This document shows positions 9,352-38,745 of a stretch of DNA of 64,000 bases, piece after piece. The notes beneath the pieces are model-generated. The model was not told where the DNA came from. It made no database searches and was given only the letters and a program-made list of their open reading frames with translations. Source of the stretch: Blastococcus aurantiacus (lineage in GTDB: Bacteria > Actinomycetota > Actinomycetes > Mycobacteriales > Geodermatophilaceae); the NCBI RefSeq assembly GCF_900102425.1, contig NZ_FNBT01000001.1:496001-560000 (forward strand), given 5' to 3'. Every line of letters begins with the position of its first letter. Position 1 is the stretch's first letter. The translations under genes were made by a program, and so were the position numbers.

Positions 9352-9360
9352 GCTCGCCCG

Positions 9361-11732: not shown

Positions 11733-11788
11733 AGAGCTGAGCGGGCTGCGGTTCTCGGGTGGCGACGAGGGGCGCGCTACCCCGGGGG

Positions 11789-17932: not shown

Positions 17933-18097
17933 CGCTGCGCATCTCCCCGTCCTACTCGGCCGCGACTGCCGGGGCCGATCGGAACCCTGCCATCTCGTAA
18001 CGACAGATTCGAGCAAGTGCAGAGCGGCGTCACCGCTTCGGGTGCCGAACTGATCAGTGGCCTCGAGCTGCACGCGGGCCACAACCGCTCGGGGGTC

Positions 18098-18862
18098 TTA
18101 CGAGACAGCCAGGCCACCGTCCGGATCCATGACGGCATCCGCAACGATGACGGCGCTCGCATCCGCCGCCGACTCGCCGGCGGCAGGCGGAGCGGCCACC
18201 GCGCCTTCCGCATCGCGCGAGAACGTCCTGTCAGCGAAGGCGCCGACGGTTCGGGTGACCACTGCGTCGACACCGCCGCCGATGACGCCACCGACCAGGG
18301 GCACGCCCTTCGCGAGAGTGACGACCGCCCTCTTGGTGCCGTACTTGGCCACGAGCATGAAGCCGACCCGCCTGTTGATGTCCCTGAGGACGGCGAGGGG
18401 GATCTTCTTGATCAGACTGTGGCTCAGCCTGGTTCCGACGGTGACGCCGAATCGCTTCAGCACTTCCGATCCTGCGTTGCCGACGAGGCACAGGAGGATG
18501 GTCGAACGGACTTCTTCGCCCTCGAGGTCGTGCCCGTGGACGGCCGCGATGGCGCCGGCCAGGTGCGTCTGGACGAGGTAGGAGGCGCCGATGTTGGCAG
18601 GCAGCGCGACGGGCAGGGTCACGAAACCACCGATATTCGTCACGAAGCCCTGAGCTCCTGCAACCGCCACGTGATTGCGGATGAGCGCCTTCACTGCCTG
18701 CTGCGGAGTGCGCCCCTGGAGCGCTTCCGCCGCCGACTCCGCTGCGCTCTTGAAGGGGCCGAATCCGTTGATCCCGAGCGTCAGCAGCTGCTCGACGAGC
18801 TTCTCCCCCGCCTTGACGAGTCCAGGATTCTCGTCGTTCGACGCTTCCGGGCGTGCAGGCAT
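18098..18862 (-). CDS. EcsC-family protein
   Basis: 254 residues, ATG after GAGGAG. The sequence has the glycine- and alanine-rich amphipathic segments of EcsC-like proteins (NHVAVAGAQGFVTNIGGFVTLPVALPANIGASYLVQTHLAGAIAAVHGHDLEGEEVR is the core, residues about 64-121; GVPLVGGVIGGGVDAVVTRTVGAFA near 190). Membrane association is likely. EcsC-like proteins occur in several phage-defence neighbourhoods, but the role is undefined. It is divergent from drmD with 221 bases between the starts, so both promoters lie in that gap. Confidence 0.8.
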   Translation of the reverse strand: MPARPEASNDENPGLVKAGEKLVEQLLTLGINGFGPFKSAAESAAEALQGRTPQQAVKALIRNHVAVAGAQGFVTNIGGFVTLPVALPANIGASYLVQTHLAGAIAAVHGHDLEGEEVRSTILLCLVGNAGSEVLKRFGVTVGTRLSHSLIKKIPLAVLRDINRRVGFMLVAKYGTKRAVVTLAKGVPLVGGVIGGGVDAVVTRTVGAFADRTFSRDAEGAVAAPPAAGESAADASAVIVADAVMDPDGGLAVS

Positions 18863-19070
18863 ATCGGAACTCCTCGGGGCAGGTCGTCTTCAGCGGCGGA
18901 GCCTAGAGGGAGTCGTCGACATCGCAAGGGCAGGCCCCGCCGACCGACCCTCGGGAGGGGCATCCCTCCTGGCCGAGCGACACGACGAGGCAACACCCGT
19001 CCCATGCGCAACCCGCACCCCTGCGACACACGTACCACCCAGGAGGGGCGACGCTTTCCCGTCTCGGAAC

Positions 19071-19076
19071 TAGTGT
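19071..19076 (+). promoter_or_regulatory. Candidate -10 box for a leaderless DISARM transcript
   Basis: TAGTGT fits the TANNNT -10 element and ends 7 bases before the GTG start of drmD at 19084. Transcription would begin at or next to the start codon, giving a leaderless mRNA. No Shine-Dalgarno sequence is present before this GTG, in agreement. No convincing -35 element was seen. Confidence 0.45.
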
Positions 19077-19083
19077 CCGGCTC

Positions 19084-22000
19084 GTGTCAGTGGCGCAGCA
19101 GAGCGAGCTCAGCCCCATCCACGAAAGCGTGGCGTCCAGCCCGGACACCCGATCCGTCCCCGAACCCGGCCAGATCGCCATGGTCCGGGGGGCAACGTGG
19201 GCTGTCACCGACGTCCGGGTACAGGGCCTCCCCCGGAGCGGTGCTGACGACGCCACCACCGGACTGCAGCACGCCGTCACCCTCCAGTCGCTCGAGGAGG
19301 ACCGACTGGGCCAGGAGCTGCAGGTCGTCTGGGAGCTGGAGCAGGGGCGCTCATTGCGACCGGAGCTCGGCCTGCCGACCTCGATCGACCCCGACCGCTT
19401 CGACGACCCGGGCCGGCTCGCCGCCTTCATCGACGCGCTCCGCTGGGGCGCAATCACCTCGGCCGACTCCCAGGTCGTCCAGGCGCCCTTCCGCAGTGGC
19501 GCCAACGTCGAGGCCTACCAGCTCGAGCCGCTGCGTCGGGCGCTCCGCGAGACCCGCGCCAACCTCCTGCTCGCCGACGACGTCGGTCTCGGCAAAACCA
19601 TCGAGGCCGGGCTCGTCGCCCAGGAGCTCTTCCTCCGCCACCGCGCCCGCACCGCGATCATCGTCTGCCCCGCCGGCCTGGCCCTGAAGTGGCAGGACGA
19701 GATGCTCGAGAAGTTCGGGCTCGACTTCACGATCATCAATTCGGAGACGATGCGCGAGGTCCGGCGCAGCCACGGGCTGCACGCCAACCCGTTCACGCTC
19801 TTCCCGCGCATCATCGTCTCGATGTCCTGGCTGCCCGGGCAGCGCGCGCAGCGCCTCCTCCGCGACGTTTACGCGCAGACGGCGAAGCGCGAGGGCGCCC
19901 GCCGGTTCGCCTACGACATCCTCATCGTCGACGAGGCGCACCACGTCGCCCCGTCGAGCCCGCAGCGCGTCGACAAGCTCAACATCACCCGCCGCGGCTA
20001 CGCCGTCGACTCGCAGCGCACGCATGCCGTCCGGGAGCTGGCCGAGAAGTGCGAGCACCGCCTGTTCCTCAGCGCCACCCCGCACAACGGCTACGTCGAG
20101 TCGTTCACCGCCCTGCTTGAGATGGTCGATCCGCAGCGCTTCGTCCGCGGCTCGCACATCGACCGATCCGCGCTCCGCGAGGTAGCGGTCCGCCGGCTGA
20201 AGCGCGACCTGAAGGAGGCCAAGGGCTTCCAGGAGCGCCAGGTCACCGCCCTGCCGTTCGAGCCCACGCCCGCCGAGGAAGAGGCCTACGAGCGCCTTCT
20301 CGCCTTCACCAACCGACGCGACAAGGCGGTGGCCACGGGCGATGGCGCGGCCAAGCAGGCCCGCGACATGGCGACGCTCCTCCTGAAGAAGCGCTTCTTC
20401 TCCTCCCCCGTCGCCTTCGCCCGCACGGTCGACGTCTACCTGGAGACGCGGCTGCGCGGTGTGGACGCGGAGCTGACCGGCGACTACGACGACGTGCTCG
20501 GCGTCGACGCCGACGACCTCGAAGAGGGGAAGTCCGACCAGACGGAGATGCTGACCCTCGCCGGCACCCGGCGGAAGCTCCCGCCCCTGACCGACGAGGA
20601 CGTCGTGGACCTGCGGTGGCTCAGCCGGTGGGGCCACGAGTTCGATGGCACCGTCGACTCCCGCCTGGCGGCCCTGGTCCGCCACCTCGACGGCGTGCTG
20701 CTCGCCGGCGACCGCTGGCTCGACGAGCGGATCGTCGTCTTCACCGAGTACGTCGACACGCTCTACTGGGTCCGGGACAACCTGCTCCAGCACGGCTACG
20801 CCGCCGACCGGATCGCGGTCATCGACGGCGGCACCGACCCCGAGCAGCGCGAGATCACGCGCGCGCAGTTCAACGAGCCGCCGAGCAAGACGATGGTCCG
20901 CATCCTGCTCGCCACCGATGCCGCCGGCGAGGGCATCGACCTGCAGGCCAACTGCCACCGGTTGTTCAACTATGACATCCCGTTCAACCCGAACCGGCTG
21001 GAGCAGCGGATCGGCCGGGTCGACCGGTACGGCCAGGACCACCAGCCGGACATCCGGCACTTCACGCCGACGGCGGGCCGTTCCGGCCTGGCGTCGGACG
21101 TCGACCTCCTCGCCCGGGTCGCCACGAAGATCGCCCGGGTCGAGCTGGACCTCGGGTCGGCGAACGAGATCATCGCGCCCGACATCCAGCGTCAGCTCAC
21201 CGGCGCCGCTCTCACACCGAGGTCAGCCGCGCAGGCCCCCGAGGGCGACCGCGCGATCAACGAGATGCTGCTCGGACAGCGGCAGGTGAACGCCGAGCTG
21301 ACCGCCCTCGAGACCCAGCTGGCGGCGGACCGGGAGAGCCTGCACCTGCGGCCGATGAACCTCCGGCGCGTGGTCGAGACCGCCCTGGACCTCGACATGC
21401 AGCCTCGACTCATCCCCAGTCAGCTGGAGGACGGCGGCGAGGTCTTCGAGCTGCCGTCCCTCGCCCGCTCCTGGGAGCCGGTCACCCGGGGCCTGGCCAG
21501 CCGACTGGAACCGGACCGTCTGCGCCCGATCACGTTCGACCAGGACGTCGCCCGCGCCACCACGGACTTCGTCCACGCCCACCTGGGCCACCCGCTGCTC
21601 CAGCGGTCCACCCGACTGCTGCGGTCGGCCCTCTGGGGCGGCGAGACCGACCTGAACCGGGTCAGCGCCGTCGTGGTCCCCGCGCTCGACGAGTCCTTCG
21701 CCGCCGCGGTCGTCCGGCTCGTCCTGGTCGGTCGCGGCGGCATCCGGTTGCACGAGGAAGTCTTCCTGGCCGGCACGCGGCTCGCCCGGCGGCAGCAGGT
21801 CGGTGTCGAGCGAGCCGAGGAGCTGCTGGCCCGAGCGCTGGACGGCGTCGAGCTGACCGCCGCGCCAGACGAGGTCGCACGCGACCTCGCTGCGGCCTGG
21901 GACGACGACGCCGCAGGACTCCGGTCCCGCGTCGAGGACGCCATCCGAGCCCGGGTCGAGCGACGGACGCGGGAGGTCGAGGACCGACTGGCGAAGCGGC

Positions 22001-22308
22001 GCGAGGAGGACCTCGCCCGGGTGGACGCCATCTTCACCCGCTTCGCCGGCACGCTCCGCGAGTCGATCGCTGCGGCGGAGAAGCTCGAACAGGAAGCAGA
22101 GGCGATGTTGTTCGACGTCGAGCAGCACCAGTCGGAGCGGGACCTGCGGCAGATGCGCGCCAGGCTCGACGCGCTCGACGACGAGCGCCGCCGCGAACGA
22201 GAGGCGGTGGAGACCCGGTACCAGGACGTGAAGCCGTGGCCGTTCCCCGCCGCGGTGCTCTTCGCGATCAGCCCGGCCGACGCCGAGAAGGGGGTGGCGG
22301 TCCGATGA
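19084..22308 (+). CDS. drmD: DISARM helicase DrmD (SNF2-like)
   Basis: 1,074 residues. SNF2/SF2 helicase motifs are present: Walker A DVGLGKTIEAG (about 167), ILIVDEAHH (motif II, about 283), LSATPHNGY (motif III), ATDAAGEGIDLQ, and LEQRIGRVDRYGQ (motif VI, about 638). The C-terminal 300 residues are charged and helical (EDAIRARVERRTREVEDRL, coiled coil). Length and its place ahead of an Eco57I-like methylase and DrmA-B-C identify it as DrmD of class 1 DISARM, an anti-phage system that methylates host DNA and attacks unmarked incoming DNA. The GTG start appears leaderless. It overlaps drmMI by 4 bases (ATGA). Confidence 0.92.
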   Translation: MSVAQQSELSPIHESVASSPDTRSVPEPGQIAMVRGATWAVTDVRVQGLPRSGADDATTGLQHAVTLQSLEEDRLGQELQVVWELEQGRSLRPELGLPTSIDPDRFDDPGRLAAFIDALRWGAITSADSQVVQAPFRSGANVEAYQLEPLRRALRETRANLLLADDVGLGKTIEAGLVAQELFLRHRARTAIIVCPAGLALKWQDEMLEKFGLDFTIINSETMREVRRSHGLHANPFTLFPRIIVSMSWLPGQRAQRLLRDVYAQTAKREGARRFAYDILIVDEAHHVAPSSPQRVDKLNITRRGYAVDSQRTHAVRELAEKCEHRLFLSATPHNGYVESFTALLEMVDPQRFVRGSHIDRSALREVAVRRLKRDLKEAKGFQERQVTALPFEPTPAEEEAYERLLAFTNRRDKAVATGDGAAKQARDMATLLLKKRFFSSPVAFARTVDVYLETRLRGVDAELTGDYDDVLGVDADDLEEGKSDQTEMLTLAGTRRKLPPLTDEDVVDLRWLSRWGHEFDGTVDSRLAALVRHLDGVLLAGDRWLDERIVVFTEYVDTLYWVRDNLLQHGYAADRIAVIDGGTDPEQREITRAQFNEPPSKTMVRILLATDAAGEGIDLQANCHRLFNYDIPFNPNRLEQRIGRVDRYGQDHQPDIRHFTPTAGRSGLASDVDLLARVATKIARVELDLGSANEIIAPDIQRQLTGAALTPRSAAQAPEGDRAINEMLLGQRQVNAELTALETQLAADRESLHLRPMNLRRVVETALDLDMQPRLIPSQLEDGGEVFELPSLARSWEPVTRGLASRLEPDRLRPITFDQDVARATTDFVHAHLGHPLLQRSTRLLRSALWGGETDLNRVSAVVVPALDESFAAAVVRLVLVGRGGIRLHEEVFLAGTRLARRQQVGVERAEELLARALDGVELTAAPDEVARDLAAAWDDDAAGLRSRVEDAIRARVERRTREVEDRLAKRREEDLARVDAIFTRFAGTLRESIAAAEKLEQEAEAMLFDVEQHQSERDLRQMRARLDALDDERRREREAVETRYQDVKPWPFPAAVLFAISPADAEKGVAVR

Positions 22309-25300
22309 GGCGTCGTCCGCCGAGCACGACGCAGCTGCACCAGGACTGGTTGGCGCAGGTCGAGACCGACGGCCCATTCCTGTCGCTGCCGGTTCTGAAG
22401 GACATGTGGCCGAACGGGATGGAGCCGCTCAGCGACGTCGACGACCGGCTGGTCACGTTCAAGGAGAGCCACGCCGCCTGGGAGCAGGCCTTCGACCGCT
22501 CCCGGAATGGATCGGCCGAGCAGTACGCCGACGTGGCGCACTCCTGGGTGGACGTGGTGCTCGACGTCCTCGCCGAGTGGGAGGGGTATCGGGTCGCACG
22601 GGGCGAGCTGCCGGCGGACCTGGTGGTCCGGTCGCCGGGCGAGACGATCGCGGTGCATCCGGACGGCGCCCTGCGGGGGCGGGACGGCGAGCTCGGGTGC
22701 CTCCTGCGGGTCGTGCCGCCGACGGACAGCCTGCACGCTGCGGGACTGGACGGTTGGTCGGCGAGCGAGACCGACCGGATGGCCGCGCTGCTGCGCAAGG
22801 CCGACGTCGCGGTCGGGGTGGTGACCGACGGCCGCTGGTGGGCGCTGGTCTGGGCCGGCGAGGGCACCACTACCGGGTCAGGGGTGGTCGACGCGCTGAG
22901 CTGGCGCGAGGAGCCCCGGCTGCGCGACGCGTTCCTGACGCTGGTCAGCGGGTCGACGCTGCGACACGCGAACCCCGAGCGCCGCCTCCCGCGTCTGTTC
23001 GAGCGCAGCGTGCTCGAGGCCGAGGAGATCACCGAGGCGCTCGGCGTTCAGGTGCGCAAGTCCGTCGAGCTGCTGGTCCAGGCGTTCTCCGAGGCGCGGC
23101 TGTCCGCGCAGGGCAAGGGGCTCGACGACCCGCTGTGCGAGGACCCGGACGAGATCTACCAGGCCGCGGTCACGGTGATGATGCGGGTGGTGTTCCTGCT
23201 CTTCGCCGAGGAGCGCGGGATGCTGCCGACGCCGGAGCTCTACCGGGCCGCCTACGGGATAAGCGACCTGCTCGACGACCTGCAGGGCAGGGCGCAGCGG
23301 GAGGGCGAGGAGAACCTCGACCACGCCACCGACGTGTGGCACCGACTGCTCGCGGTCAGCACCGCGCTCTACGGCGGGGCGAACTTCGACGAGGTCCGGA
23401 TGCCGGCCTACGGCGGATCGCTGTTCGCCCCACAGCGATTCCCGTGGCTGACCGCTGAGCGTTCCGACGGCGGACTGCGCCTGCGGGTGTCCGACCGGGT
23501 GATGCTGCACGTGCTCGAGTCGGTCCAGGTGGCCAAGGTCGGAGGTCAGGCGCGGCGGATCTCCTTCCGGGACGTCGACGTCGAACAGATCGGCTACATC
23601 TACGAGGGCCTGCTCGGCTACACCTGCCGCGAGGTCGACGCCGAGGTCGTGCTCGGGCTCGTCGGCAAGGACGGCGAGGAACCCGAGATCGACCTCGACA
23701 CCCTGAACGAGATCTACGAGGAGTCGCGGGGCGCCAAGGACTTCGCCGCGAGGCTGACCGACTGGGTCAAGCAGACCCAACCGGCCGCGAAGCTCGTCTC
23801 CGTAGCGAAGCTGGCCAAGCTGCACGACGCAGACGTCGACGAGGCGGAGATGAACCGCCTCCTCAAGCCGATCGCCGGCGACGACCCCGACCTGCTGCCC
23901 GCGCTGGTGTCGTGGGGCAACCTCATCCGCCGCGACCTGCGCGACCTGCCCTACGTCGTCCCGCGCGGCGGGCTCGTCGTCTCGGAGACCCCGTCACGCA
24001 AGAACGCCGGCGCTCACTACACGCCCCGTTCCCTGGCCGAAGAAGTGGTGCTCCACGCTTTGCAGCCACTGGTCTACGAGCCCGGCCCGCTGCAGACCAA
24101 CGACGAGAACGCCTGGCGGCTCAAGTCCAGCTCGGCGATCCTCGACCTCAAGGTCGCCGACATCGCGGCCGGCTCCGGGGCCTTCCTCGTCGCCGCCGCC
24201 CGCTACCTCGCCGACCGACTCGTCGAGGCCTGGACCGCCGAAGCCATCGTCGACGGCGATCATGTCGACACCGGCCTGCGCACCCGCGCCATCCGCGAGG
24301 TCATCGCCCACTGCCTCTACGGCGCCGACATCAACGGCATGGCCGTCGAGATGTGCAAGCTCTCCCTCTGGCTCGTCTCGCTCGATCCCACGAGGCCGTT
24401 CTCGTTCGTGGACGACAAGGTCTTCCATGGCAACTCGCTGCTCGGCCTCACCACCCTCGACCAGCTTCGCCATATGCACATCGCCCCGGAGACCAAGAAG
24501 TCCAAGGGTCAGCTCAACGCCTTCGTCGACGCCGAAGCCGTGCTCGACGAGGTCATCCGCATCCGGCACCAGCTCGCGACGACCGTCGACGAGGACGATC
24601 CCCAACGGACACGCAACGGCAAACGTCGCCTGCTCGAGCAGTCCGAGCAGGTCACCGAGAAGCTGCGTCTGATCGCCGACGGCATTGTCGCCACCGCACT
24701 CCGCCTCGGAGGCAAGCCCGGTACCGCCCTCGACGACAGCCACACGGCCCTCGAAGGAGCCCTCATCCGGGCCTTCCCCGCCGACGGCTCCGCCGGCGAT
24801 CAGTCCCACCTGCACCGCATCCTCGACCATGGCCTCACACCCAGCGTTCCCAACGACTACGCGCGCTGGCACCCCCTCCACTGGATCATCGAAGCCCCCG
24901 ACGTCATCCTCGAACACGGCGGCTTCGACGCCATCATCGGGAACCCGCCCTTCCTTGGCGCCTCTTCCCAGACAAGCGCCTTCGGCGAGAATGTTCGAGA
25001 ATGGATGGTGCACCAGATCGCCCGCGGAAACCGCGGAATGGCAGATCTTGTCGCATACTTTTTCCTGAGGGCTCAGCAGCTCGCGCGAGTTAAGGTTGGG
25101 CAGATCGGACTTATAGCCACGAACTCCATCGCCCAGAATCAGACCAAGCGCGTGGGACTCGACCAGATGGTGGCAGCCGGTGCAACGATTCGCTGGGCAG
25201 TAAAGAGCGAGGCGTGGCCGAGCCGATCGGCCAACCTCGCGTACTCCATCGTCTGTTTGAGTATGAGTTTGTCGGTCGAGGGAGTCCTTAGATACGCGGA

Positions 25301-26321
25301 CCGGATTCCAGTCCCTTATGTTTCAACAATGCTGGAAGGCGAGCTCAGCCAAGGCCGTGGTGTTCCGCTTCGACTTTCAGAGAATCGTGGACTGGCTTTC
25401 GAAGGCTCCAAGATCTACGGCGAGGGCTTCCTGCTTACCGAGGCGGAGGCCCTGGAAATGATCGAGGCTGATCCTCGCAACTCGGAAGTTATCCAGCGAT
25501 ACCTCGGCGGCAAGGATGTCAATTCGCGCCCCGACTGCTCGGCATCGCGTTGGGTAATCAATTTCTTCGATTGGGATCAGCAGAAGGCGTCGAAGTATGA
25601 GCTTCCCTTCGCTCGCGTGCTCGCCCAGGTCAAACCGGAGCGCGAGAAGGTGAATCGCGAGGCCGTGCGCGAACGCTGGTGGCGCTACGGAGAGGTTCGG
25701 CCGGGACTCTATGGTGCAATAGCGCCGCACCCCGAGATTCCAGTGATCACGCGGGTGAGCAGGACTGTCATGCCGGTTCGCGTGCCGACTACGCAGGTCA
25801 TTAGCGATTCACTCAACGCCTTCGCGTTACCAGGCTTCGGCGATCTCGCAGTTCTTTCCTCATCGATGCATCAGCTATGGGCAATCACTTATGGCTCCGG
25901 CATGAGAAATGACCCCAGATATACACCATCTGACGTATTTGAGACCTTCCCGCGCCCCCCAATCACGGACCGACTTGAAACTGCTGGCCTTAACCTCGAC
26001 GGACGACGCCGAGACATTATGGCGGCACGAAAGGTGGGACTGACGACACTTTACTGGCTCGTCAGTTCGGTCAATATCGTCGATGAAGAGATTCAGGAAC
26101 TGCGGGATCTCCACGTCGAGGTCGACGAGGCCACCATGGCGGGGTACGGCTGGCACGACATTGAGCTGGAGCACGGATTTCATTCATACAGAGGATTGGA
26201 TAAGTTCACAGTGAGCCCTGCCGCACGAGCGGAGATGCTCGCTCGCCTGCTCGAAGAGAACCACCGTCGCGCGGCAGCAGAGGGCAAGACCGTCATGACG
26301 CAATTAGGGCTTCTACGATGA
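22305..26321 (+). CDS. drmMI: DISARM adenine-N6 DNA methyltransferase DrmMI
   Basis: 1,338 residues. An N-terminal helical region (1-580) precedes the SAM-binding motif VADIAAGSGAFLVAAARYL (motif I, about 618) and catalytic motif IV GNPPF (about 880), as in Eco57I/type IIG-like adenine methylases. The C-terminal third should be the target-recognition domain. From about 25,000 to 26,300 the DNA is clearly AT-richer, with many A- or T-ending codons, unlike both flanks; this fits exchange of the recognition part by recombination. No nuclease motif was recognised at the N-terminus. The start ATG overlaps the drmD stop and its own stop overlaps drmA. It protects host DNA from DISARM. Confidence 0.92.
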   Translation: MRRRPPSTTQLHQDWLAQVETDGPFLSLPVLKDMWPNGMEPLSDVDDRLVTFKESHAAWEQAFDRSRNGSAEQYADVAHSWVDVVLDVLAEWEGYRVARGELPADLVVRSPGETIAVHPDGALRGRDGELGCLLRVVPPTDSLHAAGLDGWSASETDRMAALLRKADVAVGVVTDGRWWALVWAGEGTTTGSGVVDALSWREEPRLRDAFLTLVSGSTLRHANPERRLPRLFERSVLEAEEITEALGVQVRKSVELLVQAFSEARLSAQGKGLDDPLCEDPDEIYQAAVTVMMRVVFLLFAEERGMLPTPELYRAAYGISDLLDDLQGRAQREGEENLDHATDVWHRLLAVSTALYGGANFDEVRMPAYGGSLFAPQRFPWLTAERSDGGLRLRVSDRVMLHVLESVQVAKVGGQARRISFRDVDVEQIGYIYEGLLGYTCREVDAEVVLGLVGKDGEEPEIDLDTLNEIYEESRGAKDFAARLTDWVKQTQPAAKLVSVAKLAKLHDADVDEAEMNRLLKPIAGDDPDLLPALVSWGNLIRRDLRDLPYVVPRGGLVVSETPSRKNAGAHYTPRSLAEEVVLHALQPLVYEPGPLQTNDENAWRLKSSSAILDLKVADIAAGSGAFLVAAARYLADRLVEAWTAEAIVDGDHVDTGLRTRAIREVIAHCLYGADINGMAVEMCKLSLWLVSLDPTRPFSFVDDKVFHGNSLLGLTTLDQLRHMHIAPETKKSKGQLNAFVDAEAVLDEVIRIRHQLATTVDEDDPQRTRNGKRRLLEQSEQVTEKLRLIADGIVATALRLGGKPGTALDDSHTALEGALIRAFPADGSAGDQSHLHRILDHGLTPSVPNDYARWHPLHWIIEAPDVILEHGGFDAIIGNPPFLGASSQTSAFGENVREWMVHQIARGNRGMADLVAYFFLRAQQLARVKVGQIGLIATNSIAQNQTKRVGLDQMVAAGATIRWAVKSEAWPSRSANLAYSIVCLSMSLSVEGVLRYADRIPVPYVSTMLEGELSQGRGVPLRLSENRGLAFEGSKIYGEGFLLTEAEALEMIEADPRNSEVIQRYLGGKDVNSRPDCSASRWVINFFDWDQQKASKYELPFARVLAQVKPEREKVNREAVRERWWRYGEVRPGLYGAIAPHPEIPVITRVSRTVMPVRVPTTQVISDSLNAFALPGFGDLAVLSSSMHQLWAITYGSGMRNDPRYTPSDVFETFPRPPITDRLETAGLNLDGRRRDIMAARKVGLTTLYWLVSSVNIVDEEIQELRDLHVEVDEATMAGYGWHDIELEHGFHSYRGLDKFTVSPAARAEMLARLLEENHRRAAAEGKTVMTQLGLLR

Positions 26322-29300
26322 CCGGCGGACCGTCAACAGTCGTACGCGGGGAGCTTGTGTCCCTAATCCGGCAAGAGCTGCTCGGCCCGCGAGGCGATGC
26401 CGACGAGGAGATTCCTGCGAGTCCCCGAGCCATGTACGCCGTCGGGGGACTCGCACCGGTCACCATCGACCCCGCGCTTGCCCGCATACATGTCGACCCG
26501 GATGAAGCTGAGAGCCAGGGGATCGATGGCGCTCCCGTGCAGGCGATCAGCGATCCGGACCATCCGGGCCAACCAGGTGTCCCCGTGCCGACCGACGAGG
26601 ACATTAGGACAGCGGACTCCGATGACGAGGAGGACACCGGCCCCAAGGGTGCGCTGACGCATCCCTCGTCGATGGGACTTCGGTTCCAGGTGCCCGCCGA
26701 TGTCGGCACGCTCGCCGTGACAGCCGCCTGGGGCCGCTACAAGAGCTTCCAGCGCCTGAACGAGGAGACCGGCAAGAAGCGCACGTGGTTCCGACGCACC
26801 CCCTTCGAGTTCCCGAAGGAGCTCGTCCTAGGAGGCACCACGGCCCGACGAGCGGACGTCCTCGACCTCGACACCGACGTCAGCCTCCGCGTCGAGGTCT
26901 TCCCGCTCGGTGATCGACTGATCGTCGAACTGGCGCTCAGCAACGATCGCGTCACCGGGACCGATGCCCCGCCCGGGGACTGGCTGTTCCAGACGACGCT
27001 GACCGTCACCGCGAAGGACGGGTCGGCGTGCTTCCTGCCGAGCCGCGACGTCCTCGAACCCGGATATAGGGAGCCCGACGAGGAGCGGCGCCGACTGGAC
27101 CTCCAGTACAAGCACAAGCTCGAGTACGCCGTCGGGCGCACCTGCTCCGTCGACTGGGACGAGGTCCCTGAGTCCCGCCGCGCCCGTGAGGTCACGACGA
27201 CCTGGCTGCCGACGGCCGACGTCCCGCAGACCGTCGCCGGCGATGCCGGTGACACTGTCACCTCGATGCGTGTCCTCGCCGAGATCGACGCCGGCGACGT
27301 CCGCCGGGCGCTCGAGCCGATGATCGCCGGCTACGCGTCATGGCTCGACGTGGACCAAAAGGAGGCTGCCGACGCACTCCCCGACCACCTGGAGAAGACC
27401 GCCTCCGAGGCGATCGGCGAGGCACGAGTTGCGGCCTCCCGGCTGGAGGCTGGGTTGCGGCTCTTGGAGAGCGACCCGGACACGCTGACGGCCTTCCGGT
27501 TCATGAACCGGGCCATGCGCGACCAGCGCATCCGCTCCCAGGTCGCCGCTGCACGAGCCGCCAAGGCCGGCGTCACCGTCGAGACGGCGCTGACCGAGGT
27601 CGAGGCCAAGGGCGACAAGGCGGCTTCCTGGCGGCCCTTCCAGCTCGCCTTCATCCTCATGCAGCTTCCCGCGCTCGTGGACCCGACCGATCCCTACCGG
27701 AGCGGCGAGGACTCCCGCGTCGAGCTGCTCTTCTTCCCCACCGGTGGCGGCAAGACCGAGGCCTACCTCGGCCTGGCAGCCTTCACCTTCGCGATCCGGC
27801 GTCTCCAGGGGACCGTCCAGGGCGAGGACGGTGAGGTCGACGGGGGCGACGGGGTCGCCGTCCTCATGCGCTACACCCTCCGCCTGCTGACCTCCCAGCA
27901 GTTCCAGCGCGCCGCCGCGCTCGTGTGCGCGGCGGAACTGATCCGCCGCGAGGACGAAGCGACCTGGGGCACCGAGCCCTTCCGCATCGGGCTCTGGGTC
28001 GGCAGCAGCGTCAGCCCCAAGCGCTACGCCGAGGCCGAGGCGCAGGTGAAGCTGGCCAAGTCCGAGGACGGCCGAGCTCACGGCCTCACCGTGCTGCAGA
28101 TCAAGCGCTGCCCGTGGTGCGGAACGCCGATCGACCCGAAGCGCGACGTCGACGCCGTGGCCACGACCCAGCGGATCCACGTCCACTGCGGCGACCGCGA
28201 CGAGGAGTGCCCCTTCTCCACGCGGGGCCCCGACGACGAGGGTCTGCCCATCCTCACCGTCGACGAGGAGATCTACCGGCATCCGCCGACGTTCCTGCTC
28301 GCCACCGTCGACAAGTTCGCCCGGCTGGCGCGTGAGGGCGAGGCGGCGAGCCTCTTCGGCTACGTCGCCGAGCGCTGCCCCCGCCACGGCTACCGGCACC
28401 CCGACGCGCGCGGCGACTCCTGCAAGGGCCAGAAGCACATCACCGTCTCGAAGGGCGGCGTCACCTACCCCGCCGTCGACGTGGAGCCCGTGTCACGCCT
28501 CCGCCCGCCGGACCTGATCATCCAGGACGAGCTGCACCTCATCACCGGAGCGCTCGGCACCGCCGTCGGCGTCTTCGAGAACGTCGTCGACGTGCTCTGC
28601 TCCTGGTCCCGGGACGGCGACGCCGTCCGTCCGCTGATCGTCGCCTCCACGGCGACGGTCCGGAAAGCCGAGGACCAGGTCCGCAACCTGTACGGGCGAG
28701 GCGTCGACGTGTTCCCGCCGCAGGTGCTCGACGTCCGGCAGACGTTCTTCTCGAGGGAGCTGGAGGTCACCGAGGAGGACCCGGGACGGAAGTACCTCGG
28801 CGTCTGCGCGCACGGCATCCGGCTGACCCTCGCCGAGATCCGCATCGCCGAGGTGCTCCTGCTCGCCGGGCAGAAGCTGCTCGACGAGCACGGCAAGGCG
28901 GCCGACCCGTACCTGACCTCGGTCGCCTACTTCAGCGCGACGCGGGAGCTCGCCGGCATGCGGCGCTACGTCGACGACGACGTCACCACCCGTGTGTCCG
29001 GCAGGACCGAGCCGTTCCCGCGCCGCACCACGGACTTCTCCCGCCTGGCGATCGGAGAACTGACCTCGCGGATCTCGTCATCGGAGATCGGGGCCACGCT
29101 GGACAAGCTCTCCCTGGAGTTCGATCCGGACCGGTGGAGCACGAACGGAAAGGCTGCGTTCGCCAAGGCGATGCAGGACGGCAAGGTGAAGGGCGGCTAC
29201 GACCAGCGGCCGTACGACTTCGTCCTGGCGACGTCGATGCTGCAGGTCGGTGTCGACGTCCCCCGCCTGGGATTGATGCTCGTCGTCGGCCAACCGAAGA

Positions 29301-29977
29301 ACACCGCCGAGTACATCCAGGCCTCGTCCCGCGTCGGTCGAGATCCGTCCCGCCCGGGGCTGGTCGTTTCCCTGGCCAACTGGTCGAGACCGCGGGACAT
29401 GGCGCACTTCGAGCAGTTCCGGCACTACCACGAGACGTTCTACGCGCAGGTGGAAGCGCTCAGCGTCACCCCGTTCTCCGAGGCCGCTCTCGAGCGGGGA
29501 CTCATGGGGGTGCTCGTGAGCGCGGCCCGGGTGATGGACGTCGGCCGGCCTCAGTCCCTGTCCCCCGAGCTCGGCGCCGGCCGGATCATCGAGGGCTCAC
29601 AGCGCCTGGACGAGATCATCGAGCGGCTCGCTGAACGGGCGGCGCGTGCCTATCCCGAGCCCGACTTCGACGAGCGGGTCCGGGCCAAGCTGATCCAGCG
29701 CAAGGACCGCTGGCTCGGACGCGCGATCGAGGAGGGCGGCGGCCTCGTCTACGAGCGGTCGACCGACAAGACCCAGATCACCAGCCCGCTGCTGATCAGC
29801 CCCGAGGTCCGGACCACCACAGCCGCCGAGAAGGTCTTCGTGGTGGCCAACTCGATGCGCGAGGTGCAGCCGGAGATCAACCTCCTGGTCAGCCCCAGCC
29901 CGAGTCATCTCGCCGCCAAGGAGCCCATCGACGCTCCGGGATGGACCTTCCACGCCCCCGCCAAGGAGGACGCATGA
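26318..29977 (+). CDS. drmA: DISARM helicase-like protein DrmA
   Basis: 1,219 residues. Walker A is FFPTGGGKTEAYLGLAAF (about 476), and the DEAD-box variant is LIIQDELHLITG (DELH, about 736). A C-terminal helicase domain has ATSMLQVGVDVPRLG and QASSRVGRDPSRPG (about 1,003). A zinc-binding insertion lies between (KRCPWCGTPIDP, then HCGDRDEECPF). These are the features of DrmA, which with DrmB forms the DNA-bound core of DISARM and senses incoming DNA. Residues 1-110 come from somewhat AT-richer DNA than the rest. It overlaps drmMI and drmB by 4 bases each. Confidence 0.93.
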   Translation: MTGGPSTVVRGELVSLIRQELLGPRGDADEEIPASPRAMYAVGGLAPVTIDPALARIHVDPDEAESQGIDGAPVQAISDPDHPGQPGVPVPTDEDIRTADSDDEEDTGPKGALTHPSSMGLRFQVPADVGTLAVTAAWGRYKSFQRLNEETGKKRTWFRRTPFEFPKELVLGGTTARRADVLDLDTDVSLRVEVFPLGDRLIVELALSNDRVTGTDAPPGDWLFQTTLTVTAKDGSACFLPSRDVLEPGYREPDEERRRLDLQYKHKLEYAVGRTCSVDWDEVPESRRAREVTTTWLPTADVPQTVAGDAGDTVTSMRVLAEIDAGDVRRALEPMIAGYASWLDVDQKEAADALPDHLEKTASEAIGEARVAASRLEAGLRLLESDPDTLTAFRFMNRAMRDQRIRSQVAAARAAKAGVTVETALTEVEAKGDKAASWRPFQLAFILMQLPALVDPTDPYRSGEDSRVELLFFPTGGGKTEAYLGLAAFTFAIRRLQGTVQGEDGEVDGGDGVAVLMRYTLRLLTSQQFQRAAALVCAAELIRREDEATWGTEPFRIGLWVGSSVSPKRYAEAEAQVKLAKSEDGRAHGLTVLQIKRCPWCGTPIDPKRDVDAVATTQRIHVHCGDRDEECPFSTRGPDDEGLPILTVDEEIYRHPPTFLLATVDKFARLAREGEAASLFGYVAERCPRHGYRHPDARGDSCKGQKHITVSKGGVTYPAVDVEPVSRLRPPDLIIQDELHLITGALGTAVGVFENVVDVLCSWSRDGDAVRPLIVASTATVRKAEDQVRNLYGRGVDVFPPQVLDVRQTFFSRELEVTEEDPGRKYLGVCAHGIRLTLAEIRIAEVLLLAGQKLLDEHGKAADPYLTSVAYFSATRELAGMRRYVDDDVTTRVSGRTEPFPRRTTDFSRLAIGELTSRISSSEIGATLDKLSLEFDPDRWSTNGKAAFAKAMQDGKVKGGYDQRPYDFVLATSMLQVGVDVPRLGLMLVVGQPKNTAEYIQASSRVGRDPSRPGLVVSLANWSRPRDMAHFEQFRHYHETFYAQVEALSVTPFSEAALERGLMGVLVSAARVMDVGRPQSLSPELGAGRIIEGSQRLDEIIERLAERAARAYPEPDFDERVRAKLIQRKDRWLGRAIEEGGGLVYERSTDKTQITSPLLISPEVRTTTAAEKVFVVANSMREVQPEINLLVSPSPSHLAAKEPIDAPGWTFHAPAKEDA

Positions 29978-32079
29978 CCGCCGTGTCGGACGACCCGACC
30001 GACGTCGCCCCACCCTCCCCCGACGTACCCGAGGCGGCGGTGGCCACCGTCGAGCAGGAGCTCGACCCGCTCACCGACGTCGAGACCAACAAGCCGAAGA
30101 ACCGGGCGAAGGTCGGCGCTGTCCGGCCCTCCGCGCTGCTCTACACGCAGGGCATCGGCTCGACGGTCGACCTGCCGCACCTGTCGGTCATGCCGCACGG
30201 GCTCGATGACTGGGAGCGCATCTACCGGCGCAGGCCCACACCGCCGGAGACGATCGTCGAGCCACGCCTGCTCCAGGTCGTCCAGGCACACCTGGGCAAG
30301 ACCGTGCACGAGTTGCGCAAGCCCCCGTGGGCGTCCGCCGAGATCGGCCAGAAGGACTCGGCGACCGACCTGGGCATCCCTGGGCGCGTTTTCCCCCAGT
30401 GGTTGCGGTGCACCGGTTGCGGCCTGCTCGGCCAGGTGTCGGACGGCGCCAGCTTCGAGTACCGCAACACCAACCCCTTTCGGCCGGACCAGGCGGAGTT
30501 CCTGCACTTGAAGTGCACTGGCTGGTCCGAGGGCGGCACGGTGAAGCGCAAGCCGCGAGACCGCACCGCAGTGCCTGCCCGCTATCTCATCGCATGCCAG
30601 AAGGGACACCTCGACGAGTTCCCCTATGTCGCCTGGGTGCACCGGGGAGCGGCATGCCCGTCCGCTCCTCGACCGCGGCTCCGCATGCAGGAGTGGAAGA
30701 GCAACCTCGGTCCCGATGTCCGGATCACCTGCCAAGCGTGCAAGGCCTACCGCGGCATGCTGGATGCGACCACTCGTGCAGCCGCCGCGAATCTGCCTCG
30801 CTGTCGCGGACGACACCCGCACCTCGACGCATTCTTCACCTGCAAGGAGCAGGGCCGGCTCATGCTGCTCGGCGCCGCCAACCAGTGGTTCTCGAACACC
30901 GTGAGCGCCCTGGCCCTGCCGCGCGAGGACGAGGCGTCGGCGTCCGAGCTGGCCCCGGCCATCGCCTCCCTGCCCAGGAAGCTGCTGGCCGGCGTCCATG
31001 GCCCCGAGAGCCTGGACCTGTTCAGGCAGCTGGCGGCCATCAATGGTCTGGCCGGCCTGGAAGACGTCGACGACGACCTTCTCTGGGAGGCCTTCCAGCT
31101 CGCCACCGGGCAATCGACGACCGCGGACGACGGCGAGTACGCGGCTGCCCGACGCGACCCACGGACGCTGCTGGCGCCGGAGTGGGCCGTGCTCAGCGAC
31201 CCGTCGAAGTTCACCAAGTACAGCGGCTCTCCCGACTTCAAGGCCGAGTCGCGCGACGTGGCCGCGGCGTTGAAACCGCTCGTCACCGGGGTGGTCGCCG
31301 TCGAGCGGCTCAAGAAGGTCAACGCCTTCATCGGGTTCACCCGTATCGACGCCTTCGACCGGATCGACGACGCCTCCGACCGCGTCGCCCCCCTCACCCG
31401 CAACGGCCTGCCGTCGTGGGTGCCGGCCACCGAGGACCGCGGGGAGGGCGTGTTCATCCAGTTCGACGAGGCCCGCGTCGCCGCTTGGGAAGCCGACGTG
31501 CTGGACCGTCCGGTCTGGCAGCGCTACAGGGAAGCGCACCGGCTCAACTTCCTGCGCCGCACCAGCAAGACCGCAGCGGAGATCGATCCGGACGGCCGCT
31601 TCCCGTCCCCGCGCTACTGGGCGATCCACACGCTCTCGCACCTGCTGATCCGCGAGATGGCGATGTCCAGCGGCTACGGCTCGGCCAGCCTGACCGAACG
31701 CATCTTCGCCTGGCCCGGCAACGACGACATCCCGCCGGCGGCTGGACTGCTCGTCAGCACGACGTCCTCGGACAGCGAAGGCACGCTCGGTGGTCTCGTC
31801 GAGCTGGCCAAGCCGGGGAAGCTGCAGAAGGTCATCCTGGACGCCCTCCGCCGCGGCACCCGCTGTTCGTCCGACCCGATCTGCTCGCACCGAGCACCGC
31901 GCGGCAAGGAGGACTTCCTGCACGGGGCGGCCTGCCACTTCTGCCTGTTCGTCAGCGAGACCAGCTGCGAGCGGACGAACCGCTTCCTGGACCGCCGGAT
32001 GGTCCTCGACCTGGTCGCCGACCCGAGCACCTGGACGCCCGGACTGTTCACCGAGCTGTGCGAGGAGGACGCCGCATGA
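29974..32079 (+). CDS. drmB: DISARM DUF1998 protein DrmB
   Basis: 701 residues, ATG after AAGGAGG. Cysteine sets suited to zinc binding occur at CTGCGLLG (about 150) and CQACKAYRG (about 260), and in the C-terminal DUF1998 domain, which contains HTLSHLLIREMAMSSGYGSASL and the cluster CSSDPICSH...CHFC...TSCER. DrmB forms a complex with DrmA in the DISARM systems studied so far. The gene overlaps drmA by 4 bases at the start and drmC by 4 at the end, giving one tightly coupled operon. Confidence 0.92.
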   Translation: MTAVSDDPTDVAPPSPDVPEAAVATVEQELDPLTDVETNKPKNRAKVGAVRPSALLYTQGIGSTVDLPHLSVMPHGLDDWERIYRRRPTPPETIVEPRLLQVVQAHLGKTVHELRKPPWASAEIGQKDSATDLGIPGRVFPQWLRCTGCGLLGQVSDGASFEYRNTNPFRPDQAEFLHLKCTGWSEGGTVKRKPRDRTAVPARYLIACQKGHLDEFPYVAWVHRGAACPSAPRPRLRMQEWKSNLGPDVRITCQACKAYRGMLDATTRAAAANLPRCRGRHPHLDAFFTCKEQGRLMLLGAANQWFSNTVSALALPREDEASASELAPAIASLPRKLLAGVHGPESLDLFRQLAAINGLAGLEDVDDDLLWEAFQLATGQSTTADDGEYAAARRDPRTLLAPEWAVLSDPSKFTKYSGSPDFKAESRDVAAALKPLVTGVVAVERLKKVNAFIGFTRIDAFDRIDDASDRVAPLTRNGLPSWVPATEDRGEGVFIQFDEARVAAWEADVLDRPVWQRYREAHRLNFLRRTSKTAAEIDPDGRFPSPRYWAIHTLSHLLIREMAMSSGYGSASLTERIFAWPGNDDIPPAAGLLVSTTSSDSEGTLGGLVELAKPGKLQKVILDALRRGTRCSSDPICSHRAPRGKEDFLHGAACHFCLFVSETSCERTNRFLDRRMVLDLVADPSTWTPGLFTELCEEDAA

Positions 32080-32789
32080 CGTCCGCCGCCGAGCTCGGCG
32101 CGTTCCTGACCAAGGACGAGGCTAGACGAATCGGCGGATCTCTCGATCTCGGGCACGGACTGCTCCACCAGGCCGTCAAGAGCGTCCATGCGGACCGTCG
32201 GGAGCGCGTGCTGGAGCTCCTCCACGCCGCGCTCGAAGATCTCGCGGGCGACGTCCGCGCCCTGACCGTCGTGCTGTCGGCCCTGAGCGGCGTTCCTCGC
32301 GCCGCCCGACCGCAGTTGGTGTGGACGTCACCGAGCCTGCCGCACAGCGAAGGGCGCACGACCCTGGCCGCGTCGCAGTTGATCAACGAGGCGCAGTCGT
32401 ACGTCTACGCCGCCACCTACTCGGCGACCATGGGGTCGTCGTACGTGGCGGCGCTCCGGGAGGCGGTCGGCCGCGGCGTCGCAGTCACCCTCGTCGTGGA
32501 CCGGGCGCGGCAGGCGAAGACAGCCACGGCACTCGCCGGGAAGCTGGCCGGCGCGCGCATCTGGACGATGAGCCCGCCCGAGGTGGGCGAGTACGCCGTG
32601 CAGCACGCCAAGATCGTGATGATCGACGGGCTCGCGGCGCTGGTGACCAGCGCGAACTTCTCCTCCGCAGCGGCCGAGGCGAACCTCGAGTGCGGCGTCC
32701 TGCTGCGCGACGCCGCGGTGGCTTCTTCGATCAAGGCACACCTCGACCAGTTGCGTGACAGCCAGTTCTTGGTGGACTACTCGGCCTGA
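32076..32789 (+). CDS. drmC: DISARM phospholipase-D-like protein DrmC
   Basis: 237 residues. One HxK motif (QHAKIVMIDG, His about 176) is followed by VTSANFSSAAAEANLECG, the usual context of the PLD/nuclease superfamily with the Asn/Ser and Glu positions in place. PLD enzymes with a single HxK act as dimers on phosphodiesters. DrmC is the accessory nuclease-like subunit of DISARM and is not always needed for protection. It ends the operon; the Vsr-like gene starts 55 bases downstream on the same strand. Confidence 0.9.
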   Translation: MTSAAELGAFLTKDEARRIGGSLDLGHGLLHQAVKSVHADRRERVLELLHAALEDLAGDVRALTVVLSALSGVPRAARPQLVWTSPSLPHSEGRTTLAASQLINEAQSYVYAATYSATMGSSYVAALREAVGRGVAVTLVVDRARQAKTATALAGKLAGARIWTMSPPEVGEYAVQHAKIVMIDGLAALVTSANFSSAAAEANLECGVLLRDAAVASSIKAHLDQLRDSQFLVDYSA

Positions 32790-32844
32790 TCCAGACTGTG
32801 GACGCTGCGTCGGGCGGCCGACGCCGTGGAACCCTCAGGACGTG

Positions 32845-33303
32845 ATGGCGAGGACCCCGCAGCCCGGCCCGCATCCCGGGTCCTCCAGCGCCGAGATGTC
32901 CCGACGCATGGGCGCCGTCAAGAAGCGCGACAACGGACCCGAGATGGCCGTGCGCCGACTGCTGCACGCCGCCGGTCTCCGCTACCGAGTGGCCTGGCCG
33001 GTCCCGAGTCAACGCCGGCGGACGATCGACATCGCCTTCACGCGCGCACGTCTCGCTGTCTTCGTCGACGGATGCTTCTGGCACGGGTGCCCTCTCCACG
33101 CGACGTCGCCGAAAGCCAACGCAGCCTGGTGGGTCGACAAGATCTCGACCAACCAGGCGCGTGACGCGGACGTGACAGCGCAGCTCAAGAACATGGGCTG
33201 GACGGTGCTGCGCTTCTGGGAGCACGAGAAGCCGGAGGACGTCGTCTCGGTCATCGTCAACCGGCTCACGTCATCTGATAGCGCCTCGAGATCAGGGCGC
33301 TGA
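32845..33303 (+). CDS. vsr: Vsr-type very short patch repair endonuclease
   Basis: 152 residues, ATG after AGGACGTG. Family landmarks are MSRRMGAVKKRDNGPEMAVRRLL, RYRVAWPVPSQRRRTIDIAF, FVDGCFWHGCP (catalytic Asp and metal/zinc-site residues) and the end GWTVLRFWEHE. Vsr nicks beside T:G mismatches formed when 5-methylcytosine deaminates, preventing C-to-T mutation at methylated sites. It is paired with the cytosine methyltransferase on the opposite strand; the two 3' ends overlap by 12 bases (33292-33303). Confidence 0.92.
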   Translation: MARTPQPGPHPGSSSAEMSRRMGAVKKRDNGPEMAVRRLLHAAGLRYRVAWPVPSQRRRTIDIAFTRARLAVFVDGCFWHGCPLHATSPKANAAWWVDKISTNQARDADVTAQLKNMGWTVLRFWEHEKPEDVVSVIVNRLTSSDSASRSGR

Positions 33304-34452
33304 CAGCGCCACGTGCTCGTCGAGTGCCGACATGAAGTCCCCCGAGTACCGAAGGTTGCTCCGCCGGAGTCGGTCACGGAAGCCCTTTGTCGCTCTGTGC
33401 GACAGGGGCTCCTGGCCGTGTGTCCCAAGGACGTCAGCCAGGTGTTGGTAGTCAGGTGCCGGAGATCGTGGCCACTCGGACACCCGGACGCCCCACCTCT
33501 GGCCTCCGAGGTGACATGCGGCCTTCGGCCAGACGCTGCCGTCGACGTGCGGGGTCGTGTCGAGGGCGGCCGCCGGATCACCGGCGGCGAGCAGCCCTTC
33601 CCCGATCCACTGCGCCACGGGGACGCTTACGGCGTTGCCCACCAGCTTCCACCGGTCGCGCGTCGGCGCGTTCGCAGTCCACCCGGCAGGAAACCCCTGG
33701 AGCACCTCCGCCGCTTCGATCGACGGCCGCACGATGCGCATCCCCGGATCGTTGTCGCACATCCACACCGCCGGCGGGCTGGGGATGCTGACGGTCGTGG
33801 AGCCCTTCAAGGTGGGCACGGCGTCGATCGCCCAACCGACGCCGCGGTTGCCCTCGGTCCAGTAGAAGCCGTAGGCGCTGTTCCGTGCGGCTCCGGAGGC
33901 AGCGCCGTCCGGCTCCTCCGAGGGTGCGTCCTCCCGGAACAGGACCGCTGCCGGGTCGTGGACGGCGGATGCGAGCAAGTACACGCGCTTGCGGCGCTGA
34001 GACAGCCCGAAGGAACGGGAGTCGATGGTGCGGTAGGCCCACGCGTAGCCAGCGGACTCCAGAGACGCGGTGATCTCCCGGATCGCCGCACCTCGACCGA
34101 GGCGGAGCATGTTCGGCACGTTCTCGATCAGCACCCACTCGGGCTGCGACGTCCGGAGGAGCTGGAGCACGTGGCGGATGAGGCCGGAGGCGAGCCCTTC
34201 CAGACCAGACGTGCGGCCCGCCTGCGACAGATCGGTGCACGGGAAACCGGCGGTGACGATCGAGGCGTCTCGTAGGTCCCGCAGACCGATGACGTCGCCG
34301 TTCAGGTCGGCGTCCTCGAAGTGGTCAGCTAGGACGGACCTCGCGGATGGCCACCACTCGTACAGCTCGGACGGCTCGTCGATGCCTGCCTGCTGCAGCC
34401 CGAGTTCCATCCCGCCGATCCCGGCGAACAGTCCGAGGATGGAGTGCCCCAC
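33292..34452 (-). CDS. DNA (cytosine-5) methyltransferase
   Basis: 386 residues from the GTG at 34452 (GGGAGG upstream), giving V-GHSILGLFAGIGGMELGL, which is motif I. Other motifs in order are GFPCTDLSQAG (motif IV, catalytic C72), ENVPNML (VI), QRRKRVYLL (VIII), RPSIEAAEVLQGFP (IX) and GNAVSVPVAQWIG (X). The target recognition region between VIII and IX is short. It is most likely the modification enzyme of a type II restriction unit with the HNH nuclease divergently encoded next to it, with Vsr as repair partner. It could instead assist DISARM, since class 2 DISARM uses a 5mC enzyme, but a full class 1 set with its own adenine methylase is present. Confidence 0.93.
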   Translation of the reverse strand: MGHSILGLFAGIGGMELGLQQAGIDEPSELYEWWPSARSVLADHFEDADLNGDVIGLRDLRDASIVTAGFPCTDLSQAGRTSGLEGLASGLIRHVLQLLRTSQPEWVLIENVPNMLRLGRGAAIREITASLESAGYAWAYRTIDSRSFGLSQRRKRVYLLASAVHDPAAVLFREDAPSEEPDGAASGAARNSAYGFYWTEGNRGVGWAIDAVPTLKGSTTVSIPSPPAVWMCDNDPGMRIVRPSIEAAEVLQGFPAGWTANAPTRDRWKLVGNAVSVPVAQWIGEGLLAAGDPAAALDTTPHVDGSVWPKAACHLGGQRWGVRVSEWPRSPAPDYQHLADVLGTHGQEPLSHRATKGFRDRLRRSNLRYSGDFMSALDEHVALSAP

Positions 34453-37995: not shown

Positions 37996-38745
37996 TCAAC
38001 CTCCAGCAGATCGCCGCATGCTCCACATCTGGGCCGGGCGCTCGGACTGCATCGCGACGTCCCAAGCAACGGCGCCGTTGACGACCTCCTTGCGGAAGTT
38101 GCCCACCGCCACCCGCGCCAGCTCGGGGTCGGCCGCCACGCGCTGCGCCAGCTCGATCGCCCGGTCCTCGACCGCGGCGTCGTCCAGCGATTCCCACGCC
38201 AAGCCGAGCTCAACGGCCTTGTCGCCGTTGATCTCCTCGCCGAACAGCGCCATCGCCGCTGCGGCCTCTCGGCCGATCAGCCGCGACAGGATCACGAAAT
38301 GCCCTCCGCCGGGGTGCATTCCTCGCCGGAGGAAGCCGGCCAGCAGCCGAACGTCCTTCGCCACGATCCGCAGGTCCGCCGCCAGCAGCATGTTCATGCC
38401 GGCGCCCACGGCCGAGCCGCGCACCGCGGCCACCGTGGGCACGCGCACCTGGCCCAGCCGGTAGAACGAGTCGTAGATCTTGCCCATGCCCTCGTAGGCG
38501 TCGGGCGCCGCCGGGTCCTTGCCCGCCGAGGTCAGGGTCGCGACGTCGCCACCCGCGCAGAACGACTTGCCGACCCCGCGGATGACCAGCGCCCCGACCT
38601 CCGGCTTGGCGTCCACCTCATCGAAGGTCGCAATCAGCTCGTCGGCCATCCCAGGCGTCAGCGCGTTGCGCCTGTCCGGAGCGTTCAGCGTCACGATCGC
38701 GACGCCGCCGTCCACCTTAAGCAGCACTTCACCAGATTCGACCAC
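37996..38745 (-). CDS. Enoyl-CoA hydratase/isomerase family protein
   Basis: 249 residues from GTG (38745) with AGGTGG upstream. Crotonase landmarks are LNAPDRRNALTPGM, the oxyanion-hole segment GKSFCAGGDVATL, and RGSAVGAGMNMLLAADLRI with the second oxyanion glycine. The C-terminal helices end in AVAWDVAMQSERPAQMWSMRRSAGG. It hydrates or isomerises acyl-CoA in fatty-acid breakdown. The gene is of high-GC chromosomal type and sits between two accessory gene groups, so the island is either interrupted by native DNA or made of two insertions. The 292 bases upstream (38746-39037) hold no other gene I can support. Confidence 0.88.
   Translation of the reverse strand: MVESGEVLLKVDGGVAIVTLNAPDRRNALTPGMADELIATFDEVDAKPEVGALVIRGVGKSFCAGGDVATLTSAGKDPAAPDAYEGMGKIYDSFYRLGQVRVPTVAAVRGSAVGAGMNMLLAADLRIVAKDVRLLAGFLRRGMHPGGGHFVILSRLIGREAAAAMALFGEEINGDKAVELGLAWESLDDAAVEDRAIELAQRVAADPELARVAVGNFRKEVVNGAVAWDVAMQSERPAQMWSMRRSAGG

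Follow-up and report, generated by a model that had tools for sequence, protein, structure and literature searches.

If the effector machinery of a phage-defence operon is nearly the same in closely related lineages, what decides which DNA that machinery treats as self? This question is raised by a 64,000-nucleotide stretch of the Blastococcus aurantiacus genome (contig NZ_FNBT01000001.1, positions 496,001 to 560,000; hereafter the window, in whose numbering positions are given unless a locus of a relative is named). The window carries an operon of the DISARM system, drmD-drmMI-drmA-drmB-drmC, at 19084-32789. A previous sequence-only reading had described it as a complete class 1 DISARM operon with five genes in this order, and the reading frames, the NCBIfam and PADLOC profile scans and the sequence match to a solved DrmAB complex bear this out. 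What that reading overlooked is that drmMI, the adenine methylase gene, looks like a mosaic with a replaced target-recognition (TRD) half. This half varies on its own, whatever the other DISARM subunits do, and looks like a module exchanged between DISARM operons, an exchange that would presumably alter which DNA counts as self.

Composition of the operon

All five reading frames are open and lie on the forward strand. The first, drmD (19084-22308, 1074 residues, GTG start), encodes an SNF2-like helicase that scores 1195 bits against the NCBIfam model DISARM_DrmD (cut-off 610) and 1229 bits against PADLOC DrmD. One PADLOC model labelled DrmA also matches this protein, albeit at 894 bits and thus below its score with DrmD, and BrxH models match it at 222-224 bits. 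The second gene, drmMI (22305-26321), predicts a 1338-residue N6-adenine methyltransferase of the MmeI/type IIG kind, spanned nearly full length by the PADLOC DrmMI model (1548 bits). A PADLOC type IIG model likewise matches it full length (676 bits), Pfam assigns the domains MmeI_Mtase, Eco57I and MmeI_TRD, and the solved structure of MmeI (PDB 5hr4) is matched at an E-value of 5.8e-12. The NCBIfam scan returned no DrmMI match and only two weak PglX matches, far below cut-off.

The YprA-type helicase gene drmA (26318-29977, 1219 residues) is of the short form (NCBIfam DISARM_DrmAS, 1330 bits, cut-off 950), and drmB (29974-32079, 701 residues) encodes its DUF1998-type partner (NCBIfam DrmB_fam, 647 bits, cut-off 240). 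The two proteins match chains A (E 2.4e-222) and B (E 8.8e-132) of PDB 7s9v, and in the sequence search the DrmAB chains of 7s9v and 7s9w were the only solved ones matched. Because the Pfam zinc-domain model MZB stays below its cut-off on DrmB (21.5 vs 24.2), the DrmB assignment rests on the full-length models. The last gene, drmC (32076-32789, 237 residues), encodes a phospholipase-D-like nuclease (NCBIfam DISARM_DrmC_I, 149 bits, cut-off 133; Pfam PLDc_2).

The sequence-only reading had also held the motifs to be intact, which agrees with GLGKT, DEAH and GRVDR in DrmD, DIAAGSGAF and NPPF in DrmMI, GGGKT, DELH and ASSRVGR in DrmA, and HxKx4D in DrmC, which we take to be the respective helicase, methylase and phospholipase-D motifs. 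The profile search that it had proposed assigned all five proteins to DISARM families and placed neither DrmD nor DrmMI in a different one. ATGA stands at each of the four gene junctions, so that neighbours overlap by exactly 4 bases as had been claimed, which suggests translational coupling. Nothing in the data supports the further claim of a fixed stoichiometry of the products, and some relatives carry genes between drmMI and drmA.

A DISARM operon has drmA and drmB as adjacent separate genes, as found here, together with the drmC nuclease. In class 1 systems drmD and drmMI stand before drmA. The window has the SNF2-like drmD and the adenine methylase gene in that place, and the same order, drmD, DNA methyltransferase, drmA, drmB, is annotated in the DISARM locus of the Nocardioides sp. 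JS614 plasmid pNOCA01 (NC_008697.1). The DrmA of that locus is 55.4% identical to that of the window; it differs by three opposite-strand genes between the methylase gene and drmA, and by its position on a conjugative plasmid. By its predicted genes, then, 19084-32789 is a complete and ordinary class 1 DISARM operon, DISARM itself being an already known kind of system.

The recognition half of drmMI

The nearest operons lie in Geodermatophilaceae, namely in Blastococcus, Klenkia, Geodermatophilus and Modestobacter; the scan of genome contigs that was used to find operon relatives recovers close relatives of DrmA only. Against three close relatives (loci L021 from Blastococcus tunisiensis DSM 46838, L024 from Blastococcus sp. 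TF02A-30, and L038), the DNA of the operon is about 93% identical over most of its length, most 250-base blocks reaching 85-97%. Identity is lower in the 5' end of drmD, as it is in parts of drmB for L024 and L021. At 24584-25083 the identity falls to 65-80%, and at 25084-26333, the steepest part, to 35-58% in all three relatives aligned, before recovering in drmA within some hundred bases. The protein follows the same course. DrmMI is about 95% identical to its counterparts in L021 and L024 through residue 780, and from residue 841 onward blocks of 60 residues are 33-68% (L021) and 18-63% (L024) identical. We accordingly delimit the TRD half at 24825-26321 on the forward strand, on the basis of DNA identity, protein blocks, pair correlation and codon composition.

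The pair correlations come from 29 loci, the window and 28 others. Left out were L025, L034 and L131-L136 (cut, incomplete or divergent), L033, L043 and L044 (no drmD or drmMI match), L046 and L047 (distant DrmA) and L002-L020 (short, and most duplicated as longer copies); for L028, whose drmD is split over two frames, the better piece alone was used. The set is not random, because L137 and L144 entered it for their inverted copy or recombinase (see below). Over the 406 pairs, identity in the N-terminal part of DrmMI correlates with that of DrmD at 0.98, DrmA at 0.99 and DrmB at 0.97, and with that of DrmC at 0.93 (378 pairs). Its correlation with the identity of the TRD half of the same protein is only 0.18. 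In all 19 pairs whose N-terminal parts are at least 84% identical, the TRD half is the lowest-identity part. Conversely, 11 of the 406 pairs have a TRD identity exceeding that of the N-terminal part by at least 10 points, led by L028-L031, where the TRD half is 76% identical, the N-terminal part 51% and DrmA 52%.

Codon composition changes along the gene as well. The G+C content at third codon positions (GC3) drops from 93.1% in the N-terminal part of the window drmMI to 64.9% in its TRD half, and it was lower in the TRD half in each of the 15 drmMI genes that were compared. The best TRD partner of the window protein (L031) reaches only 57% identity, too low to point to a donor.

Likeness to MmeI, a type IIL/IIG enzyme, lies in the homologous methylase and TRD region. 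The difference lies at the other end, where the PD-(D/E)xK nuclease set was not seen by eye among the residues at least 90% conserved in 28 aligned DrmMI proteins. A type IIG/IIL enzyme with a built-in nuclease is thus an unsupported description of DrmMI.

Possible invertible recognition modules in distant relatives

Four distant class 1 DISARM loci may carry a switch for the recognition half. In each of them (L031, L137, L144 and L143), drmMI and drmA are separated by an inverted copy of the TRD and a gene for a serine recombinase. L031, from a Propionibacteriaceae metagenome-assembled genome, has the order drmMI, inverted TRD copy, serine recombinase (Resolvase and Recombinase domains) and drmA, with the inverted copy and recombinase at 6502-9598 of that locus. 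L137 (genome G239) was found through a TRD search that matched 24 genomes, four of which (G239, G128, G203 and G224) were fetched to look for a switch; it repeats the L031-like layout at 7763-11669, where the exact inverted repeat measures 467 bases and the recombinase shares 72% identity with that of L031. A recombinase search at E 1e-90 across 345 genomes of the class gave two matches, L144 (G985; 10106-12564 of the reverse complement) and L143 (G750; 1-1710 of the reverse complement), and both recombinases adjoin DISARM with an inverted TRD piece. The L143 contig terminates within the inverted copy.

Four exact inverted repeats were examined in the three loci that could be tested (467 bases; 111 and 82 bases; 31 bases). 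In all of them the two arms agree in codon phase, so that inversion would preserve the reading frame, although homologous coding sequence alone would also yield the same phase. The longest exact inverted repeat in 42 other stretches, not all of class 1, was 19 bases. The four loci thus apparently hold a putative invertible specificity switch. Among the literature matches listed, no account of an invertible or exchanged DrmMI was found, in a search that lacked most subscription papers, so that reports may exist; the invertible form in these relatives looks like a new variant.

The window itself does not carry this arrangement. A search for a repeated TRD gave no second copy in the window, no exact inverted repeat of at least 16 bases occurs in 18001-34000, and the recombinase search of the window had a best match of only E 0.64, so that no invertible switch was found at this locus. 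Applied to 32 DrmMI regardless of a recombinase, the second-TRD test returned one inverted copy (L031) and one tandem second methylase gene (L134).

Relatives of the recombinase at E 1e-90 were absent from the plasmids searched. Viral contigs gave four, 62-64% identical to the L031 recombinase and with no drm match within up to 3 kb; because of these viral relatives, the recombinase appears to resemble phage-type serine integrases. Among the other loci, L134 has two drmMI genes in tandem, and L138 (G128) has two about 12 kb apart. In L140 (G224), a TRD-like piece near 9758-10901, interrupted by a stop, stands in a stretch with no other drm match, so such TRDs occur outside evident DISARM as well.

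Proposed mechanism

We consider it probable that the window encodes a complete class 1 DISARM system in which the TRD half of DrmMI sets the self mark and DrmAB spares DNA that bears it. DrmMI would methylate adenines in one motif of the host chromosome, chosen by its C-terminal TRD half. DrmAB, an ATP-driven helicase complex that binds single-stranded DNA, would load on incoming DNA and be restrained where the DNA bears the self mark, and DrmD and DrmC would presumably act with or after DrmAB to stop phage DNA. The system is presumably expressed and active, and DrmMI presumably has such a motif.

The closest structural reference is the class 1 DISARM of Serratia sp., to whose DrmA and DrmB the window proteins are homologous over nearly their whole length. 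Its operon holds one 5-methylcytosine (m5C) and one N6-adenine methylase (PMC9142583), and the adenine methylase is shared with the window; the window m5C methylase gene, by contrast, lies outside the operon and on the opposite strand. The same paper describes DrmAB as binding single-stranded DNA with 5' overhangs and having a lower ATPase on methylated DNA, proposes V1296 of DrmA as a methylation sensor, and takes DISARM to be independent of a given sequence. Window DrmA V1183 aligns with V1296 (chain residue counted by hand), so that the proposed sensor valine is conserved.

A specificity role for DrmMI is suggested by analogy with BREX, whose effector genes are different. There PglX determines the specificity of methylation and of defence alike (PMC11341690), and PglX/BrxX, like DrmMI, is a methylase with a variable TRD (PMC11341690, PMC11842806); pglX duplications and phase variation are reported in these papers too. 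An unchanging DrmA-D set beside a variable DrmMI agrees equally with an effector that responds to modification in general and with one that DrmMI directs, in the way that PglX guides BREX (PMC11341690, PMC11842806).

DrmMI would supply the self mark of the strain, and a change of its target would probably matter to phages. In our view the exchange of TRD halves is kept because phages carrying the local mark would otherwise pass; lineages would change the mark like a password and leave the effector machinery as it is. The balance of evidence tips, slightly, towards a modular TRD that is exchanged between lineages, while DrmA, DrmB, DrmC and DrmD stay the same, with an actinobacterial sub-group whose dedicated serine recombinase would invert a silent TRD into drmMI and so let a population change its self mark. 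Were this true, self/non-self recognition by DISARM would depend on the sequence motif of DrmMI. The operons about 93% identical with different TRDs are natural allele sets that could tell a motif-specific self mark from a response to modification in general. Should an invertible DISARM methylase be confirmed, DISARM would join BREX and type I restriction as defences that vary specificity within a population.

Several points weigh against this reading. The locus pairs are not independent of each other and the correlations are given without a P value. Fast evolution can account for part of the TRD difference, and the low GC3 of the TRD half does not name a donor. Furthermore, DrmA of the window is the short form, in which about 127 residues at the N-terminus of the Serratia chain have no counterpart.

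The downstream Vsr/m5C/HNH cassette

As the sequence-only reading had noted, other restriction genes adjoin the operon. Downstream lie vsr, a mismatch endonuclease gene (32845-33303, forward strand; TIGR00632, 111 bits, above cut-off, frame checked), an m5C DNA methyltransferase gene on the reverse strand (33292-34452; TIGR00675) and an HNH endonuclease gene (34587-35498, forward strand, with a start of our choice; Pfam HNH_2, 38.0 bits; PADLOC HNH). We assign these genes to a linked cassette rather than to DISARM. Class 2 DISARM has drmMII, an m5C methylase, in its composition; the neighbouring methylase scores 375 bits against the PADLOC type II model MTase_II and 58 bits against DrmMII, and a class 1/class 2 hybrid is rejected on this ground.

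Among loci whose DrmA is at least 63% identical to that of the window, 11 of 14 have a strong methylase match and vsr downstream, in two arrangements; the remaining three are L026, which has vsr but matches the methylase only weakly, L028, which has the methylase alone, and L027, which is cut short. Below 60% DrmA identity the strong pair occurs in one of 23 loci (L040) and weak matches in two (L046 and L124), counts limited by several stretches that end soon after drmC. Relatives of the methylase gave 26 matches in 298 genomes, five of them, including the five best, beside class 1 DISARM. With two weak matches left out, 19 other methylase loci were fetched: vsr accompanies the methylase in all 19, and drm homologues are absent from the stretch in 18, L077 being the one with weak DrmA/DrmB homologues. 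In L040/L093, a cassette of the window type stands in another orientation beside a DISARM operon 54-56% identical. The cassette thus is, judging from gene neighbourhoods, a companion with an independent existence, whose linkage to DISARM is real in one lineage. Loci without DISARM and DISARM operons without the cassette weaken the case for it as a required DISARM part.

Beyond the HNH gene, at 35538-37425, a GmrSD-type gene is frameshifted into GmrSD_N and GmrSD_C pieces, with 167 codons open from 35538; the corresponding gene is a single open frame in L024 (629 codons) and L093 (627 codons).

Alternative explanations

The mosaic pattern could arise without any exchange, if the TRD half evolved faster through relaxed constraint or point-by-point diversifying selection. 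Such fast evolution alone would also make the TRD half the lowest part in all 19 close pairs, and BrxX likewise varies most in its TRD (PMC11842806). It would not readily give the 11 pairs, such as L028-L031, in which the TRD half is the more similar one, nor the GC3 shift from 93 to 65% within drmMI, nor the sharp recovery of identity at the drmMI/drmA boundary, and we regard it as unlikely. Exchange of the TRD half therefore stays the preferred account.

We likewise think it improbable, and rather strongly so, that the operon and the downstream vsr, m5C methylase and HNH genes form a single larger DISARM with two marks. The recurrence of the methylase and vsr in 11 of the 14 closer loci and the two methylases of the Serratia operon (PMC9142583) speak for such a system. 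Against it stand the single strong pair among the 23 more distant loci, a methylase that is not DrmMII, the vsr-linked methylase relatives away from drm genes, and the differently oriented cassette of L040/L093. There is very little room for an assignment to ARMADA or another YprA-helicase system in place of DISARM. ARMADA has a helicase like BrxHII and a methylase like PglX in common with class 1 DISARM (PMC12458937), and the BrxH models do match DrmD. However, that paper gives a helicase with a fused DUF1998 module and a Vsr-type nuclease domain for ARMADA, and separate DrmA and DrmB genes followed by the phospholipase-D-like DrmC as typical of DISARM. The window has drmA and drmB apart and vsr as a distinct downstream gene, and the best-scoring models for its proteins are those of DISARM.

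Genomic setting

The region between 14903 and 38805 is, as far as the flanking genes can tell, a variable hotspot. On the left it is bordered by an ADP-ribosylglycohydrolase/phosphatase gene (14903-16303), which was detected in 42 of 84 genomes, and on the right by an enoyl-CoA hydratase gene (37996-38805), detected in 26 of 60; a RecB-like nuclease/helicase gene (40839-45314) follows on the right. Both flanks are present in 25 genomes. In 17 of these they share a contig, with a spacing of 2.65-88 kb (21.7 kb in the window; G003, G009 and G024 match the left gene only in part, and the nearer match was used when there were two), and in the other eight they lie on different contigs, which is uninformative or speaks against a common site. 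Three genomes, G000, G009 and G024, have a DISARM drmA within this interval. The G+C fraction is 0.63-0.72 across 16-42 kb of the window, against 0.73-0.79 in the DNA on either side (16 kb to the left, 10 kb to the right).

Two further genes lie near the operon. Upstream, on the opposite strand, an EcsC-family gene at 18098-18862 matches the PADLOC candidate PDC-S29 with 248 bits, and its homologues stand beside DISARM in L024 and L029 and occur also in L046. On the right, 38960-40030 encodes a 356-residue protein with a dCTP-deaminase-like domain (Pfam DCD, 52 bits), which shares a 4-base overlap with a methyltransferase gene.

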